From an uncultured Bacteroidia bacterium (GTDB lineage: Bacteria > Bacteroidota > Bacteroidia > JACCXN01), in assembly GCA_937995645.1 (NCBI GenBank), contig CALKJP010000192.1, positions 1 through 32,984 on the forward strand: a DNA stretch of 32,984 bases, in the 5' to 3' direction. Every line of letters starts with the position of its first letter. Position 1 is the first letter of the stretch. This document shows, piece after piece, positions 2,072-16,693 of this stretch. The notes beneath the pieces are model-generated. The model searched no databases, was not told the origin of the DNA, and saw only the letters and a list, made by a program, of their open reading frames with translations. The position numbers and the translations under genes were made by a program.

Positions 2072-3074
2072 TAACTATTTAATAACACTTAATTGTTTGT
2101 TTTTTCTTTTATTTTTTTCCTGCCGCGAAGAAGAAAAATGGAATATTCCTGTTCCCGAGAATGGAGTAGAGCTTTCGGTTTTCAGACTTGATTCTGCAGT
2201 TTTTAAAGTAGAGGATGATATTGTTGAGCAATCAGTAGGTTTTATTTATAATGAACTTTCGAGTTTTGCGGATATTTATTTTAGAGGAATTATTAAAATT
2301 GGTGATACTTCAATGGCATCATTTTATAATAACCTGAGCATGTTTCGTAACGATAATGATATGCGCCAATCGTTTAAAGATGCATATACTTTATACCAAG
2401 ACTTTAGTCCTTATAAACAAGCATTAACAGAAGCATTCAATTATTATAAATATTATTTTCCTAACAAACATATCCCAAAAATTGTTCCTTGTATAACTGG
2501 ATATAACTATGCCATACTAGCAGCTGATAGTGTTTTGGGAATAGGATTAGAAATGTTTATGGGGAAAAATTACAAGTATTATGCCCTTATAGGTTTCCCG
2601 CTCTACAAAGCCGAAATGATGGACTCAACTCATCTGGTTACAGAAGCCGTTAAATCATGGGTTCAAACCGAATTTTTTGAAGAATCAGAAAATGAAGAAT
2701 TACTTACAAAGATGATTAATGCAGGAAAAATATACTTTATTACAGAAGCCTTAATGCCAAAAAAAGATGACCATGTAATTATAGGTTACACACCGGAACA
2801 ATGGAAATGGTGTGAAGAAAACCGAATAAATATGTGGGCGCATTGGGTAGATAATAAATTACTCTATTCAACCATTTCGAAAGATATTATGAAATACTTA
2901 AATGATGGACCATTTACTCCCGGTTTCCCCAGAGAATCTCCTTCAAGAACAGCAGCATGGATGGGATGGATGATAGTAAAGGCTTACATGCAAAAGCAAA
3001 ATAAAATAGATTTACAAGCCTTAATAAATACCGATGCCAAAAGCATTTTAAAACAATCGAAATTTAAACCATAA
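2064..3074 (+). CDS. gldB: Gliding motility lipoprotein GldB
   Basis: A 336-residue lipoprotein of the GldB family, needed for gliding in Flavobacterium; its biochemical role is not settled. A lipoprotein signal ends in LLFFSC, so Cys20 would be lipidated. That fixes the start at 2064 rather than an in-frame ATG 60 bases upstream. Family landmarks are ELSVFRLDSAVF near the N-terminus, IGYTPEQWKWCEENRINMWAHWVDNKLLYS, and the C-terminal FTPGFPRESPSRTAAWMGW followed by IVKAYM. gldC follows 11 bases later. In flavobacteria gldB and gldC are neighbours, with nadE and engB often nearby, as they are here. GldB homologues also occur in non-gliding Bacteroidota, so its presence does not prove motility. 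Confidence 0.9.
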   Translation: MNNNYLITLNCLFFLLFFSCREEEKWNIPVPENGVELSVFRLDSAVFKVEDDIVEQSVGFIYNELSSFADIYFRGIIKIGDTSMASFYNNLSMFRNDNDMRQSFKDAYTLYQDFSPYKQALTEAFNYYKYYFPNKHIPKIVPCITGYNYAILAADSVLGIGLEMFMGKNYKYYALIGFPLYKAEMMDSTHLVTEAVKSWVQTEFFEESENEELLTKMINAGKIYFITEALMPKKDDHVIIGYTPEQWKWCEENRINMWAHWVDNKLLYSTISKDIMKYLNDGPFTPGFPRESPSRTAAWMGWMIVKAYMQKQNKIDLQALINTDAKSILKQSKFKP

Positions 3075-3085
3075 ACTACCTTTTT

Positions 3086-3439
3086 ATGAAACAAACAGAA
3101 ATCAAGCTGGAAATACAATTAGATGAAAATAACGTTCCTGATAAAATTCATTGGATAGCAAGTGATGCTCCTGTAAAGGAAAAGCAAGAAGTAAAAGCCA
3201 TGTTTTTATCACTTTGGGACGCTAAAGATAAAAATACACTTAAAATAGATTTATGGACAAAAGATATGACTATAAATGAAATGAAAATATTTTTTCATCA
3301 AACCCTGCTAACCATGACCGATACCCTTATGAAATCAACCCAAGAAGATAAAATGGTAGGAGATATGCGCGATTTTTGCGATTATTTTGCCGAAAAAATG
3401 GGGATTAGTTATGAGAATCCATCTCAAAAAAATTATTAG
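3086..3439 (+). CDS. gldC: Gliding motility protein GldC
   Basis: A 117-residue cytoplasmic protein with no signal peptide or membrane segment, matching GldC in length and pattern. It begins with the repeated charged strand MKQTEIKLEIQLDENNVPDKI, then a conserved HWIASDAP segment, FLSLWDAKDKNTLKIDLWTKDMTINEMK, and a C-terminal helix ending near FCDYFAEKMGI. In Flavobacterium, gldC mutants glide poorly; the molecular function is unknown. It follows gldB closely and is probably on the same transcript. The next gene downstream has its own promoter. Confidence 0.88.
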   Translation: MKQTEIKLEIQLDENNVPDKIHWIASDAPVKEKQEVKAMFLSLWDAKDKNTLKIDLWTKDMTINEMKIFFHQTLLTMTDTLMKSTQEDKMVGDMRDFCDYFAEKMGISYENPSQKNY

Positions 3440-3446
3440 TTAAAAT

Positions 3447-3477
3447 TTGGTAGTTCTTAAAATTTTTTTAAATTTGC
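3447..3477 (+). promoter_or_regulatory. Textbook Bacteroidota promoter for the T9SS-secreted protein gene
   Basis: TTTG at 3447-3450, a 19-base spacer, then TAAATTTG (exact TAnnTTTG) at 3470-3477. The ATG follows 22 bases later. This is one of the clearest promoters in the window and shows that the gene is transcribed independently of gldBC. Confidence 0.75.
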
Positions 3478-3499
3478 TTACCGTACAAAAGCAATCATT

Positions 3500-5293
3500 A
3501 TGAAAAAATTTTACATTTCAGCAGTTTCTTCACTATTACTATTGTCTTCTTATCCGTTAGCTGCACAAACTACTTTCTTCAATAATGGAGCATTAGTTGT
3601 TAGTTCCGCTACTATTTTTCGTATAAACGGAAATTTAACAAATGATGGGGCAACAGCTGATTTTACTAATACAGGTACCATTACTATTGCTAACAGTACC
3701 AATCCGGGAACAATTACATTACAAAACGGTTCGGTTTTTAACGATAATGGTACGCTTAGAGTAGAACAAGATTTTGTCAATAATGCAACATTTAATGCCG
3801 GTACATCAAGCAATGTAGAATTATATAGCTCTACAGCTACCCAACTTATTACAGGAACTGTAAATACTACTTTTAATAATTTAACACTTACCGGTACAGG
3901 AACAGGTGCTGCTAGAATTAAGCGTATGACTTTAGATGCAACCGTTGCCGGTCAATTAGTATTAAACGACAGAGAACTAGCAACTGATGCTAATACCATG
4001 TTTGTTACTAATCCTGCAGTTACAGCAATTACTAATAACACAGTGCCCGGTTCCGAAGGATTTGTAAGCAGCTTAGGAAATGGAAGTTTATCGCGAGTTG
4101 TAAATGCCAACCAAGCGTATATTTTTCCTACAGGTTCAAGTTTGGTAACTACACGTTATCGTCCGGTAGAATTGAATCCAAATGCTAATTCGATATTTAC
4201 TGTGCGTTTTGTAAATAACGACCCAAATTTGGATGGATTAAACAGAACTCAACTTGATGCACAAACCTGTATTGTTAATCCAAATTGGTATCATAAAATT
4301 AATAGAACAGGAGCTGCAGCTTTTGCCGATATTAATATAGCTTATGTAACTGCAAATGATGGAACTTGGGCTAATATGGCCAATTATCAACCTACTAATC
4401 AATGGACAGATATGGGAGCTGTTACTGCTTCAAGCATTGGAGCACAGCCATCTGTAAGAAAAGTTTTATGGCAAAATTTCTTAACCGTTCCCAACGATGC
4501 CTACATATTAAGCGAACAAAGACCAACAGCACCAACTGTTAGTGGCGATACTTCGGTTTGCGGTGGTTCTACGGCTGTTGTTTATACTGCAAGCGGTAAT
4601 CCAAGCTCAACCTATACATGGACAGTTTCAGGAGGTACAATTGTTGGTGATTCTACCACTCAATCGGTTACTGTAAATTGGAATAGCGGTATTACTTCCG
4701 GAACATTGAGCGTAATTGAAAATTCGCCTTCCGGTTCATGTTCTTCTACCTCATCCGGATTATTTACAATAACTTTTATCCCATCACCAATTGCTGGATT
4801 TGATACCATTTCTAATGGCCCGTTAAACCAAATAGTAGCCTTTATTGATACCAGTTCCGGTGCTACCAGCTGGCAGTGGACTTTTGGTAATGGAAATACA
4901 TCAACCTTGCAAAATCCTACACAAAACTTCCCTTTAGCAGGCGAATATGAAATTGAACAAATAGTTCAAAATAGTTTTGGATGTACTGATACAGCCAGAA
5001 TTACTTTAAGAATAGAAGAAGGTATTATTATACCTAACGTGTTTTCTCCTAACAACGATGGAATTAACGATTGGTTCTATATTCCAAATACAGGAATGAA
5101 AGAATTTTCAATTGAAATATTCAACCGTTGGGGCACAAAATTATGGGAAACCACGGCTCCCGAAATTCGCTGGGATGGTAGAACAACTGCAGGGGTACAA
5201 TGTCCGGATGGTACTTATTTCTTTATCCTTAAAGCTGAAACTTTATCAGGAAAAGATTACAGCACAACAGGTCATGTAAACTTAATACGATAA
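3500..5293 (+). CDS. Secreted PKD-domain protein with T9SS type B sorting domain
   Basis: A 597-residue extracellular protein. It has a signal peptide (MKKFYISAVSSLLLLSSYPLAAQ). Residues about 24-150 are low-complexity Asn/Thr-rich and strand-forming (GNLTNDGATADFTNTGTI). A PKD-like/Ig-like domain lies at about 345-430 (VSGDTSVCGGSTAVVYTASG, YTWTVSGG). A PKD domain lies at about 430-510 (SWQWTFGNGNTSTLQNPTQN). The C-terminal domain starts at about 512: IIPNVFSPNNDGINDWF, IEIFNRWGTKLWE, WDGR, CPDGTYFFILKA. This is the gliding-motility-associated (CHU_C) type B sorting domain, recognised by the type IX secretion system and, in Flavobacterium, dependent on a PorP/SprF-like partner. No enzymatic domain is visible; a surface adhesin or structural role is likely. 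It has its own promoter and a strong downstream hairpin. The partner SprF gene is not in this window. Confidence 0.9.
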   Translation: MKKFYISAVSSLLLLSSYPLAAQTTFFNNGALVVSSATIFRINGNLTNDGATADFTNTGTITIANSTNPGTITLQNGSVFNDNGTLRVEQDFVNNATFNAGTSSNVELYSSTATQLITGTVNTTFNNLTLTGTGTGAARIKRMTLDATVAGQLVLNDRELATDANTMFVTNPAVTAITNNTVPGSEGFVSSLGNGSLSRVVNANQAYIFPTGSSLVTTRYRPVELNPNANSIFTVRFVNNDPNLDGLNRTQLDAQTCIVNPNWYHKINRTGAAAFADINIAYVTANDGTWANMANYQPTNQWTDMGAVTASSIGAQPSVRKVLWQNFLTVPNDAYILSEQRPTAPTVSGDTSVCGGSTAVVYTASGNPSSTYTWTVSGGTIVGDSTTQSVTVNWNSGITSGTLSVIENSPSGSCSSTSSGLFTITFIPSPIAGFDTISNGPLNQIVAFIDTSSGATSWQWTFGNGNTSTLQNPTQNFPLAGEYEIEQIVQNSFGCTDTARITLRIEEGIIIPNVFSPNNDGINDWFYIPNTGMKEFSIEIFNRWGTKLWETTAPEIRWDGRTTAGVQCPDGTYFFILKAETLSGKDYSTTGHVNLIR

Positions 5294-12534: not shown

Positions 12535-13791
12535 ATGCTGTATTATTTGTTTAAATATTTAGATAGTTTAGATATTCCCGGAACAGGAGTGTTTCAGTAC
12601 ATCTCTTTCCGATCTGCAATGGCAGTAATTGCTTCATTATTTATTACACTAATAATCGGAAAGCGTATCATTAGAATATTACAAAAAAAACAAATTGGAG
12701 AAACTGTTAGAAATCTTGGATTACAAGGTGAAAATTTAAAAGCAGGTACTCCAACTATGGGTGGAATAATTATTTTAGCAGCTATCATTGTTCCAACATT
12801 ATTATTTGCTCGTCTTGATAATATATACATTTTATTGATGTTAATTACTACCATTTGGTTAGGATTAATAGGGTTTTTAGACGATTACATCAAAGTTTTT
12901 AAAAAGAATAAAGAAGGTTTATCAGGTAGGTTTAAAGTAGTTGGCCAAGTAGGTATTGGTTTGTTAGTAGGATTAACACTTTATTTTAATGATGGAGTAG
13001 TAATAAGACAAAAAGTTCTTAACAATCCACAATTAGCCTATCAAGATGATGCAGTTTTCGAAAATGATGCATTAACCAATCAGCCTAAAAACTATCATTT
13101 AGAAGAAAATAAATCGCTTAAAACAACTATTCCATTTGTAAAAAATAACGAGTTCGATTATTCAGATTTATTAAAGTTTTTAGGCGATGATTACAAAAAA
13201 TGGGCATGGTTAATTTTTATCCCAATTGTAATTTTTATTGTTACAGCAGTTTCAAATGGAGCAAATATTACAGATGGTTTAGATGGACTTGCAACCGGAA
13301 CTTCGGCAATAATTGGCGCTACACTTGGAATCTTTGCTTATGTATCGGGTAATACCATTTTTGCAGATTACTTAAACATTATGTATATACCGAATACTGG
13401 TGAGTTAGTAGTGTTTATCGCTGCATTTGTAGGAGCTTGCGTTGGTTTTTTGTGGTATAATTCTTTTCCTGCACAAGTATTTATGGGCGATACAGGAAGT
13501 TTAGCCTTGGGAGGAATTATTGCAGTATTTGCAATTGCTATTCGTAAAGAATTATTGATTCCAATCTTATGCGGTATATTTTTAGTTGAAAATTTATCTG
13601 TAATGCTACAGGTAAGCTATTTCAAATACACTAAGAAAAAATATGGTGAAGGAAGACGCATTTTTAAAATGTCGCCCTTGCATCATCATTATCAAAAATT
13701 AGGATTGCATGAAGCTAAAATAGTTTCACGCTTTTGGATTGTAGGAATAACATTAGCCATACTAACATTTGTAACACTTAAACTACGTTAA
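12535..13791 (+). CDS. mraY: Phospho-N-acetylmuramoyl-pentapeptide-transferase MraY
   Basis: Transfers phospho-MurNAc-pentapeptide to undecaprenyl phosphate, making lipid I in the inner membrane. The polytopic protein carries the family motifs [32 protein letters not shown] (Asp pair), [28 protein letters not shown], and the MSPLHHHYQ histidine motif. At 418 residues it is about 60 longer than the E. coli enzyme. The extra length is a polar insert at about residues 155-220, between membrane segments ([18 protein letters not shown] onward). A similar enlargement occurs in other Bacteroidota MraY. Its stop overlaps the murD start. Confidence 0.96.
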
Positions 13792-15134
13792 TGAGCACTA
13801 AGGAAAAAATAGTTGTTTTAGGAGCTCGCGAAAGCGGAACGGGAGCGGCTATTCTTGCCAAAGCTCAAGGATATGAAGTGTTTGTAAGTGATAAAGGTAA
13901 AATTGCTGATAAATTTAAAAATTTGTTGTTAAAACATCAAATAAGATTTGAAGAAGAAAAGCATACAGAAGCTGAAATTTTATCAGCATCAGAAGTAGTT
14001 AAAAGTCCGGGAATACCAGATAAATCAGATGTGGTTTTAAAATTAAAAGAAAATAAAATTCCCGTTATTTCCGAAATTGAATTTGCAGCAAGATATACTA
14101 ATGCAAAAAAAATTTGTATTACAGGAAGTAATGGAAAAACAACAACTACACTTTTAACTTATCACATTCTAAAAAAAGCAGGTTTAAATGTTGGCTTAGC
14201 AGGTAATGTCGGTAAAAGTTTTGCAGCAATGGTTGCAAACGAAAGTCATGATTACTATGTTTTAGAGTTGAGTAGTTTTCAGTTAGATAACATGTATAAG
14301 TTTAAAGCAGATATAGCAATTCTTTTAAATATTACACCAGATCATTTAGACAGGTATGAGTATAAGATGGAAAATTATGTGAATTCAAAATTCAGAATAA
14401 CTCAAAATCAAAAAACAGATGATGCATTTATATTTTGTGCAGATGATCCTGAAACAGTAAAAGCGATAAAAGATAAAAATATTATAGCAAAAAAATATCC
14501 TTTTTCAATAATACACAAATTAGAAGAAGGAGCATGGCTAAATGAAAATCAAATTAACATTAACATAAATAATAATCCGCTAACTATGACAGTAGAAGAA
14601 CTCGCTTTACAAGGCAAACACAACATTTATAATTCGATGGCTGCAGGTATTGCAAGTCGTATTCTGGATATTCGCAAAGAAATAATTCGCGAAAGTCTTT
14701 CCGATTTCGAAAATATCGAACATCGTTTAGAATATGTTGCAAAAATCAACGACATCGAATTTATTAATGATTCAAAATCAACCAATGTAAATTCAGCATG
14801 GTATGCTTTAGAAAGTTTTGATAAGCCAATCATTTGGATAGCAGGTGGTGTTGATAAAGGAAACGATTACTCTATGCTCAAAGATTTGGTTAAAGCTAAA
14901 GTAAAAGCAATTGTATGTATGGGCAAAGATAACAAAAAACTTATCAAGGCATTTAAAGATGTTGTGCCGGTAATAGAAGAAACATCATCTGCTGAAGAAG
15001 CTGTTGCTGTTGCTTATAGAATCGGTAAAAAAGGCGATGTAGTATTGCTATCACCAGCTTGTGCAAGTTTCGATTTATTCGAAAATTACGAAGACAGAGG
15101 GAATAAGTTTAAAGCAGCAGTTAAAGCATTATAA
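13791..15134 (+). CDS. murD: UDP-MurNAc-L-alanine:D-glutamate ligase MurD
   Basis: Adds D-glutamate to UDP-MurNAc-L-Ala, using ATP. The 447 residues show three domains: an N-terminal Rossmann-like domain (VVLGARESGTGAAILAKAQG), a central ATPase with ITGSNGKTTTT and ELSSFQLD, plus NITPDHLDRY, and a C-terminal domain. The linker motif NDSKSTN (residues 326-332) and GGVDKG (352-357) are intact, as is LSPACASFDLFENYEDRGNKF near the end, which holds the D-Glu contacts. The start overlaps the mraY stop by one base. The next gene, 12 bases downstream, resembles the last third of this protein. Confidence 0.96.
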   Translation: MSTKEKIVVLGARESGTGAAILAKAQGYEVFVSDKGKIADKFKNLLLKHQIRFEEEKHTEAEILSASEVVKSPGIPDKSDVVLKLKENKIPVISEIEFAARYTNAKKICITGSNGKTTTTLLTYHILKKAGLNVGLAGNVGKSFAAMVANESHDYYVLELSSFQLDNMYKFKADIAILLNITPDHLDRYEYKMENYVNSKFRITQNQKTDDAFIFCADDPETVKAIKDKNIIAKKYPFSIIHKLEEGAWLNENQINININNNPLTMTVEELALQGKHNIYNSMAAGIASRILDIRKEIIRESLSDFENIEHRLEYVAKINDIEFINDSKSTNVNSAWYALESFDKPIIWIAGGVDKGNDYSMLKDLVKAKVKAIVCMGKDNKKLIKAFKDVVPVIEETSSAEEAVAVAYRIGKKGDVVLLSPACASFDLFENYEDRGNKFKAAVKAL

Positions 15135-15146
15135 TAAATAAACTAT

Positions 15147-15545
15147 ATGGAAACTGTAAGAAGCGTTAATAATATTGATTATATGTGCGATGCTTTAGCG
15201 GATGCATCTGCCAGCGCTTCTTCTATTTCTAAAATTACAAGCAGTTTTATTTTAATAACAGATGCAAATGCTAATTGGAATAATGTTAAAGAAGTTCTAA
15301 AATCAAATTGTAAAGCATTGTTTTATATAGGTAAACCTGGTGCTCAAATTATGTTTGATTTGCGTTCTTATATTCCTTTAATAATGCAAACAGAAAATAT
15401 TGAAGAAGCAGTTTTACTCGCTTCTCAATTTAAAATAAATGGAATAAACAAAATAGTTTTTATTCCCGGAGTTGAAAATACTAATGGATTTTCAGCTCAG
15501 CAAATGATTGAAATTTTTAAAAATACAGTTAAAAATATTAAATGA
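15147..15545 (+). CDS. Stand-alone, diverged MurD C-terminal-domain paralogue (function unknown)
   Basis: A 132-residue cytoplasmic protein with no signal peptide or membrane segment, not a recognised dcw member. Hand alignment with the adjacent MurD (residues about 319-447) is co-linear over nearly its full length, with one 4-residue deletion and a 1-residue insertion and about one identity in five. VNNIDYMCD matches INDIEFIND, VKEVLKSNCKALFYIGK matches LKDLVKAKVKAIVCMGK, and YIPLIMQTENIEEAVLLA matches VVPVIEETSSAEEAVAVA. Key positions are lost: NDSKSTN becomes CDALADA, GGVDKGND is shortened to DANAN, and SPACASFD becomes IPGVENTN. The whole ATPase domain is absent, so ligase activity is very unlikely. 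The stop overlaps the ftsW ATG (ATGA), implying coupled translation. I infer a partial duplication of murD with a new, perhaps scaffolding or regulatory, role. The alternative is an unrelated Rossmann-like domain. Confidence 0.7.
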   Translation: METVRSVNNIDYMCDALADASASASSISKITSSFILITDANANWNNVKEVLKSNCKALFYIGKPGAQIMFDLRSYIPLIMQTENIEEAVLLASQFKINGINKIVFIPGVENTNGFSAQQMIEIFKNTVKNIK

Positions 15546-16693
15546 ATTGGTTTGCTAACATAAAAGGCGATCGTGTTATTTGGGTAATAGTGATACTATT
15601 GTCAGTAGTATCTATGTTGGCGGTTTATAGCTCAATTTCTACTCTTGCCTACAAGAGCGGAACAGGAAATCAAATGAGCATTTTAATAAAACATGGTATT
15701 ACGGTTTTTCTTGGATTGGTAATAATGTATTATGTGCATAAATTAAAATTTACATACTATTCAAGAATTGCTCAAATTGCATTTTGGTTAAGTATTCCAT
15801 TACTTGTTCTAACATTGATTATTGGAACAAACTTAAATGATGCCAGCAGATGGTTAGTTGTACCCGGATTAGGAATTTCGTTTCAAACATCTGATTTGGC
15901 AAAGGTTGCATTAATTATGTATGTAGCAAGAATGCTCTCTAAAAAACAAAACCAGATTAAGGATTTCAAATCAGCCTTTTTACCAATTATTTTACCAATT
16001 ATTATAATTTGCACCTTAATTCTTCCTGCAAATTTTTCTACTGCTGCATTATTATTTGCAGTTTGTTTTATATTGATGTATGTAGGACGTGTTAATTTGA
16101 AATATTTAGGAGCAATGATTGGAATTGGAATTATTGGAATATTGTTGATTATACTTGTTGGAAAATATGCTCCAGATTTGGTTCCGCGTTTTGGAACATG
16201 GGTAAGCCGTATCGAAAACTTTTCAAGTGGAAATAGTGAAGGAAATTACCAGGCTAATCAGGCCAAAATTGCTATTGCAACAGGAGGTATCACTGGAAAA
16301 GGTCCGGGCAACAGCACACAAAGAAATTTTTTACCACACCCTTATTCAGATTTTGTATATGCATTTATAATTGAAGAATACGGAATTTTTGGAGCCTTTG
16401 GAATATTATCATTATATATGCTCTTGCTTTTCCGAACAATAAAAATTGTAACAAAATCTGAAAATACTTTTGGTGGTCTGCTTGCGCTCGGGTGTGGATT
16501 ATTATTAGTATTACAAGCATTTATAAATATGGCCGTATCGGTTGGATTATTTCCTGTTACAGGTCAGCCATTACCATTAGTAAGTAAAGGGGGGACTTCT
16601 ATTTTATTTACCGGAATAGCCATTGGAATAATTTTAAGTGTAAGCAGATCAATAGAAGAAGATAAAAAAGGAGGGAAATTTGAAACAGCTTAA
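15542..16693 (+). CDS. ftsW: Lipid II polymerase FtsW (SEDS family)
   Basis: A SEDS glycosyltransferase that polymerises lipid II at the septum together with FtsI. The 383 residues form about ten membrane segments. Family landmarks are DASRWLVVPGLGISFQTSDLAK, ANFSTAALLFAVCFILMYVG, a periplasmic loop with GISNG-like GITGKGPGNSTQRNFLP followed by HPYSDFVYAFIIEEYG, and PVTGQPLPLVSKGGTS. The position between murD and murG and the FIIEEYG motif favour FtsW over RodA. The ATG overlaps the stop of the preceding small gene, and the 3' end overlaps murG by 14 bases. Confidence 0.95.
   Translation: MNWFANIKGDRVIWVIVILLSVVSMLAVYSSISTLAYKSGTGNQMSILIKHGITVFLGLVIMYYVHKLKFTYYSRIAQIAFWLSIPLLVLTLIIGTNLNDASRWLVVPGLGISFQTSDLAKVALIMYVARMLSKKQNQIKDFKSAFLPIILPIIIICTLILPANFSTAALLFAVCFILMYVGRVNLKYLGAMIGIGIIGILLIILVGKYAPDLVPRFGTWVSRIENFSSGNSEGNYQANQAKIAIATGGITGKGPGNSTQRNFLPHPYSDFVYAFIIEEYGIFGAFGILSLYMLLLFRTIKIVTKSENTFGGLLALGCGLLLVLQAFINMAVSVGLFPVTGQPLPLVSKGGTSILFTGIAIGIILSVSRSIEEDKKGGKFETA

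Follow-up and report, generated by a model that had tools for sequence, protein, structure and literature searches.

A stand-alone MurD C-terminal-domain paralogue between murD and ftsW, very probably belonging to a Bacteroidia gene family that appears undescribed

RESULTS

A 132-codon gene separates murD from ftsW

In the window (the whole 32,984-nucleotide stretch of DNA analyzed here), an open reading frame of 132 codons with an ATG start and a TGA stop lies between murD and ftsW, on the same strand as both. Its stop codon overlaps the ftsW start in the sequence ATGA, as the original prediction had described. The features of the locus are as follows.

13791 to 15134, + strand: murD, full length, the presumptive parent of the stand-alone domain (TIGR01087, 417.9 bits against a cut-off of 211.95)
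14682 to 15131, + strand: final 150 codons of murD, the part with homology to the stand-alone gene (alignment, hhalign)
15147 to 15545, + strand: stand-alone MurD C-terminal-domain paralogue, 132 aa (open reading frame, TIGR01087, hhalign, AlphaFold2, Foldseek)
15186 to 15206, + strand: CDALADA codons, replacing NDSKSTN of MurD; K319 and T321 lost, D317 kept (hhalign)
15258 to 15275, + strand: TDANAN codons, a shortened loop replacing GGVDKGND; K348 lost (hhalign)
15459 to 15485, + strand: FIPGVENTN codons, replacing LSPACASFD; S415 lost, Phe409 being a family signature (hhalign)
15542 to 15545, + strand: ATGA, stop of the stand-alone gene overlapping the start of ftsW (sequence)
15542 to 16693, + strand: ftsW (PF01098, E=7.6e-77)

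The reading frame is intact, with no frameshifts or internal stops, and retains its codon bias; it does not have the marks of a pseudogene. In-frame codon log-odds are 0.295 for the stand-alone gene, 0.247 for murD, and 0.327 for murG, compared with -0.081 +/- 0.056 for base shuffles of the same frame (n=1,000). None of 20,000 shuffles was free of stops. The claim that the gene shows no codon decay is thus borne out.

The encoded protein is a diverged MurD C-terminal domain

Residues 1 to 108 of the 132-aa protein match positions 308 to 418 of the NCBIfam murD profile TIGR01087 (E=1.7e-5). The score of 24.1 bits lies below the curated cut-off of 211.95, and the N-terminal UDP-binding and central ATP-binding domains are missing, so the protein does not classify as a MurD ligase. 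Profile comparison with hhalign aligned residues 1 to 100 with 19 MurD C-terminal domains (94%, E=1.4e-7, 25% identity) and residues 1 to 131 with 20 stand-alone relatives from other genomes (97.6%, E=4.4e-12). The protein is nearer to the stand-alone profile, scoring 72.3 over 130 columns versus 47.4 over 100 columns for MurD; controls for the higher score reached at most 20.3 in 60 shuffles and at most 26.9 in 37 unrelated 132-aa pieces. Searched against its own whole genome, the stand-alone profile recovered MurD and the 132-aa open reading frame (1.9e-11) and otherwise one chance-level match (E=0.37). The proposed homology to the C-terminal third of MurD is confirmed by these comparisons.

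Searches with the 132-aa sequence alone returned no match in Pfam, the gathering score of PF02875 included, because the sequence is strongly diverged. They likewise returned no match in a PDB sequence search and no close relative in a scan of genome contigs.

The AlphaFold2 model of the protein has a mean pLDDT of 85.8 and a pTM of 0.85. Its input held nine stand-alone rows, no MurD row, and no template; the long rows are clear homologues of MurD C-terminal domains, and the model therefore does not test the homology call independently. Foldseek matched it to 21 PDB entries at E<=0.001, of which 20 are MurD structures and one is MurT. TMq to the MurD structures ranged from 0.69 to 0.83, with most at about 0.75 to 0.83, and the C-terminal domain of Mpl ranked next, with MurE and MurF. 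The 132-aa protein is predicted to adopt the fold of the Mur ligase C-terminal domain superfamily, in keeping with the suggestion that this fold is kept.

The failure of the lone sequence to match Pfam or PDB sequences is what one would expect of a chance open reading frame, or of a three-layer protein that is unrelated to MurD but was taken for one of its domains. That reading is contradicted by TIGR01087, the controlled hhalign scores, the own-genome profile search, AlphaFold2, Foldseek, codon usage, and a position conserved in relatives; it is refuted in practice, and what probability it retains is negligible.

Most ligand-contacting residues are lost

We took domain limits and ligand residues of the Escherichia coli enzyme from PMC3527612 and PMC4816537 and mapped them through K-12 MurD (literature numbers are the K-12 MurD index minus 1). 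The C-terminal domain of MurD is its D-Glu domain (PMC3527612); it moves inward and closes against the central domain (PMC4816537), and its Lys348 contacts the D-Glu-like carboxylate (PMC3527612, PMC4816537). Of these ligand residues, the 132-aa protein retains D317, has other residues in place of K319, T321, K348, and S415, and lacks R302, whose position falls just before the start codon. The protein retains 11 of 39 near-invariant MurD positions, and nearly all residues that contact ATP or D-Glu are gone. The hhalign alignment agrees with the three replacements originally listed: CDALADA for NDSKSTN, IPGVENTN for SPACASFD, and the shortened TDANAN for GGVDKGND. The accompanying claim that catalysis is lost also stands, since four ligand residues are replaced and a lone C-terminal domain, having neither the ATP-binding central domain nor the UDP-substrate domain, cannot ligate.

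Among 35 long stand-alone relatives, R302 is kept in 54%, D317 in 80%, K319 in 66%, T321 in 69%, and S415 in 86%. Lys348, kept in 26%, is the most consistently lost of the six ligand residues scored. The frequent retention of S415, T321, and D317 in long members, and the identity of the same domain in MurD as the D-Glu domain (PMC3527612), would suit a free domain that has no stable protein partner and reports on precursor supply by binding a small molecule (D-Glu, nucleotide, or UDP-MurNAc-dipeptide). However, K348 is lost in 74% of the long members, the window protein lacks nearly all ligand residues, and the MurD site is formed between domains, so that a lone domain has no such site. We consider a ligand-binding role distinctly unlikely.

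Separate MurD C-terminal-domain genes occur across the class

We surveyed 396 near-complete genomes of the class, presumably Bacteroidia, scoring a separate copy wherever the stand-alone profile matched a genome in at least two separate places at E<=1e-8. This was the case in 83 of the 396. One of the 83 (G242) has a MurD split between contigs and two more (G296 and G337) resemble split MurDs, giving a corrected count of about 80 of 396 genomes in about 19 to 20 families; the versions in families f20 and f33 are too diverged for the profile used in this count. Outside the class, 89 genomes of the phylum yielded no separate copy at E<=1e-6; in G406 the end of a contig interrupts MurD. Where loci of this arrangement carry a name, they belong to metagenome-assembled genomes of Bacteroidia and Flavobacteriales, and to Crocinitomicaceae. 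A long copy is absent from the murD-ftsW position in the cultured genera retrieved (Pedobacter, Chryseobacterium, Polaribacter, Tenacibaculum, Chitinophaga, Hymenobacter, and others), which may explain how the gene went unnoticed. It is also absent from both sampled relatives in the window organism's own family, whose murD-ftsW gaps are 51 and 31 bp (L008 and L031).

Relatives carry separate open reading frames of about 120 to 240 codons at the same place, and in the loci read the copies sit between murD and ftsW. In murD-to-ftsW regions from 80 genomes, the products of gap genes of 330 to 860 bp usually match MurD from about residue 245 to 311 through to the end and are 31 to 60% identical to the window MurD. 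The description of the gene as inserted between murD and ftsW holds for its position and fails as a local event, since the same gene is found there in about 20 families and appears to be old and often lost.

Copy number and context vary. G332 has two tandem stand-alone copies of 170 and 176 aa between murD and ftsW (L236:1564-2638). In G043 the dcw cluster is split, with murD elsewhere (L233:2996-4762, L237), and the first stand-alone copy (4211-4762, - strand) lies directly upstream of ftsW (2996-4201, - strand). G043 and three other genomes (G005, G087, and G047) carry a second, more diverged copy outside the dcw cluster (L230:4620-5156, L232:4283-4819, L231:4198-4833, L234:4374-4988). In families f4 and f46 the second copy adjoins a gene resembling aldehyde dehydrogenase.

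Family f33 has a short type in 22 of its 46 genomes, and all 22 are open frames with no internal stops. Here the copy is progressively shortened to about 99 to 123 aa, is absent in sister genera, and carries a new conserved motif, LI.I..Q.FYY. We rejected the window gene as a member of this short type, since the two match with an hhalign score of only 20.8; so weak a match suggests that the two shortenings were probably independent. The Crocinitomicaceae-type gap protein A7 likely, but not certainly, belongs to the stand-alone family. Its model (pLDDT 80) has Mur ligase C-terminal domains as best PDB matches (3mvn, E=2.9e-5), and its profile comparisons are weaker, with E=2e-4 against stand-alones and 1e-5 against MurD.

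Shared substitutions favor a single old duplication

When 98 C-terminal domains were placed in one tree, a single branch parted 30 stand-alones from 68 MurDs (support 65/68; recovered in 64% of bootstrap replicates). None of the stand-alones pairs with the MurD of its own genome. The branch of the window copy is very long, at about 5 to 6 changes per site. Phe409 is found in 23 of 35 stand-alones and Ser329 in 18 of 35, and neither occurs in any of 99 MurDs; the window copy has Phe409. On a species tree inferred from FtsW and the remainder of MurD, 15 changes are needed to explain where the gene is present, versus 27.8 for shuffled labels, a clustered pattern with many losses.

The shared substitutions never seen in the MurDs, together with the one-branch separation, favor one old partial murD duplication with many losses but do not prove it. 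The contrary reading has recent partial murD duplications recurring in separate lineages, with no single old family. AU tests in four families do not reject such family-wise duplication (p 0.085 to 0.24), and the tandem copies of G332 would also fit. Its cost is a log-likelihood deficit of 19 to 39 units, and it sits poorly with the absence of any stand-alone grouped with its own MurD and with two substitutions common among stand-alones and missing from MurDs. We judge it very unlikely. A single ancestral duplication would have left the last central-domain helix and the C-terminal domain between murD and ftsW, where the duplicate would have been inherited mostly vertically and lost many times. 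In some lineages, such as those of the window and family f33, the copy would then have been shortened and its active site stripped.

Relatives of the gene appear to evolve under purifying selection

Stand-alone genes in families f12 and f4 have dN/dS values of 0.01 to 0.05 where dS is unsaturated, and those of f37 have values of 0.16 to 0.23. Close pairs in f33 give 0.13 to 0.41 (Fisher P down to 1.8e-13), and one f33 pair (G275/G034) gives 0.50 at high divergence. These codon comparisons indicate purifying selection in every relative measured, including the short, stripped f33 subtype. In close pairs of f12 at similar dS, dN is 0.011 to 0.058 for the stand-alone gene, 0.11 to 0.17 for the MurD C-terminal domain, 0.20 to 0.28 for the rest of MurD, and 0.09 to 0.22 for FtsW, making the stand-alone the most constrained among the three proteins. 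In f21, f37, and f33 the stand-alone evolves faster than MurD. MurD of f12 (L046, L047, L048, L094, L095, L110) is unusually fast-evolving, and the stand-alone there is nearly frozen.

The original prediction called this a maintained gene and named absence from all close relatives, combined with neutral dN/dS, as the mark of a decaying fragment. Maintenance holds for the family; for the window copy itself it is judged from the open frame, codon usage, and fold, the dN/dS values being those of relatives. Of the two signs of decay, absence is found in the two family relatives, but neutral dN/dS fails in every relative measured. Absence from these two and from most of the class indicates that the gene is dispensable there.

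The gene could still be a relic, a once-useful duplicate surviving in the window as a remnant that is decaying or close to neutral and nearing loss. The very long branch of the window copy, the two family relatives lacking the gene, the many absences on the species tree, and the shortening in f33 with absence in its sister genera all point that way. Against it, the 132-codon frame is intact with native codon usage, and the modeled protein is confidently folded and keeps Phe409. The open frames of all 22 f33 short copies and the low dN/dS of their close pairs argue against decay of the gene family as well. On balance, we think a relic unlikely.

DISCUSSION

The 132-aa protein is a real homologue of the MurD C-terminal domain. 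We conclude that it is very probably a stand-alone paralogue of that domain, a diverged representative of a Bacteroidia gene family that seems not to have been described before. No published description of such a stand-alone gene was found in the open-access literature (subscription journals lay mostly outside the search), in line with the statement that no protein of this kind was known.

Comparison with known systems places it nearest to MurD, with which it shares the fold (TMq up to 0.83), collinear sequence, and an adjacent gene. Unlike MurD, it is a separate gene without the N-terminal and central domains and has lost active-site residues. The Pfam family Mur_ligase_C (PF02875) was matched by all 20 long relatives scanned but not by the window member. 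MurT, of the MurT-GatD complex, is a structural match to the 132-aa protein in which the Mur-ligase fold is re-used with a partner protein, but MurT is a multidomain amidotransferase subunit, whereas the stand-alone is one domain with no GatD-like partner adjoining. PDB entry 3mvn is, according to its title, a Mur-ligase C-terminal domain of Mpl solved as an isolated domain; it is a piece of a larger ligase and not, as here, the product of its own gene.

The best overall explanation, to which we give about even chances, is an old paralogue of the MurD C-terminal domain that acts as a non-catalytic partner, whether to MurD or to the FtsW-MurG machinery. More specifically, and a little short of even chances, the protein would be made together with MurD and FtsW and act by protein contact as a non-catalytic subunit; co-expression, a binding partner, and regulation are all things we infer here. 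Long members retain the hinge helix and some of the surface that closes on the ATP-binding domain, and most lack Lys348. In the reading we favor, with that surface partly kept and Lys348 mostly lost, they might dock in trans on MurD as a pseudo-domain that delivers no D-Glu and modulates or stabilizes MurD or a Mur complex. Short members such as the window copy lack the closing surface and would keep the fold only, perhaps as an adaptor between precursor synthesis and the FtsW/MurG complex. By analogy, the proposal that Bordetella MurG is a scaffold for Mur enzymes (PMC6420597) makes such an adaptor plausible. The copy in G043 that remains beside ftsW, with murD elsewhere, hints in this single case at a link to FtsW. 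In its fullest form, which we hold doubtful, the proposal is that a MurD-derived non-catalytic subunit physically couples MurD to FtsW/MurG and tunes lipid II supply at division, its short descendants being new adaptors with a motif of their own.

Few bacterial gene clusters have been studied as well as the dcw cluster, and it has long been asked whether the cytoplasmic Mur enzymes and FtsW/MurG assemble into a regulated complex. About a fifth of the sampled genomes of the class carry the extra gene, usually inside this well-studied cluster. A domain of an essential ligase that is kept as a separate gene, and in one family is more constrained than the ligase, would be a natural test case for a regulated Mur-FtsW/MurG complex. 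The family also shows a graded transition in which an enzyme domain loses its catalytic residues and selection continues to act on it. If the proposal is true, many members of the class possess an extra, unrecognized protein of cell-wall precursor synthesis.

Other open reading frames at and beyond the locus

Two further gap open reading frames were rejected as family members: one in G330 (L050:1369-1737; 116 to 123 aa), which looks helical, and one in G081 (L009:2062-2268; 69 aa), which is unrelated. Such unrelated small frames indicate that the murD-ftsW gap tolerates other insertions. In f12, an extra open reading frame of 71 to 92 aa lies between the stand-alone gene and ftsW (L048:1928-2158, L095:2198-2410, L110:2101-2376; strand-oriented coordinates); the copy that was read has a single probable transmembrane segment. 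In f43 (L019, L024), two unrelated larger frames follow murD in place of ftsW. Finally, G384 encodes a MurD C-terminal domain (L235:4173-4778) after a zinc-ribbon-like stretch, CLHCGHSMGEDQLCPQC, with an in-frame insertion near the DKGND loop; its contig, which has a phage-like appearance, codes for a DUF5906/helicase protein as well.
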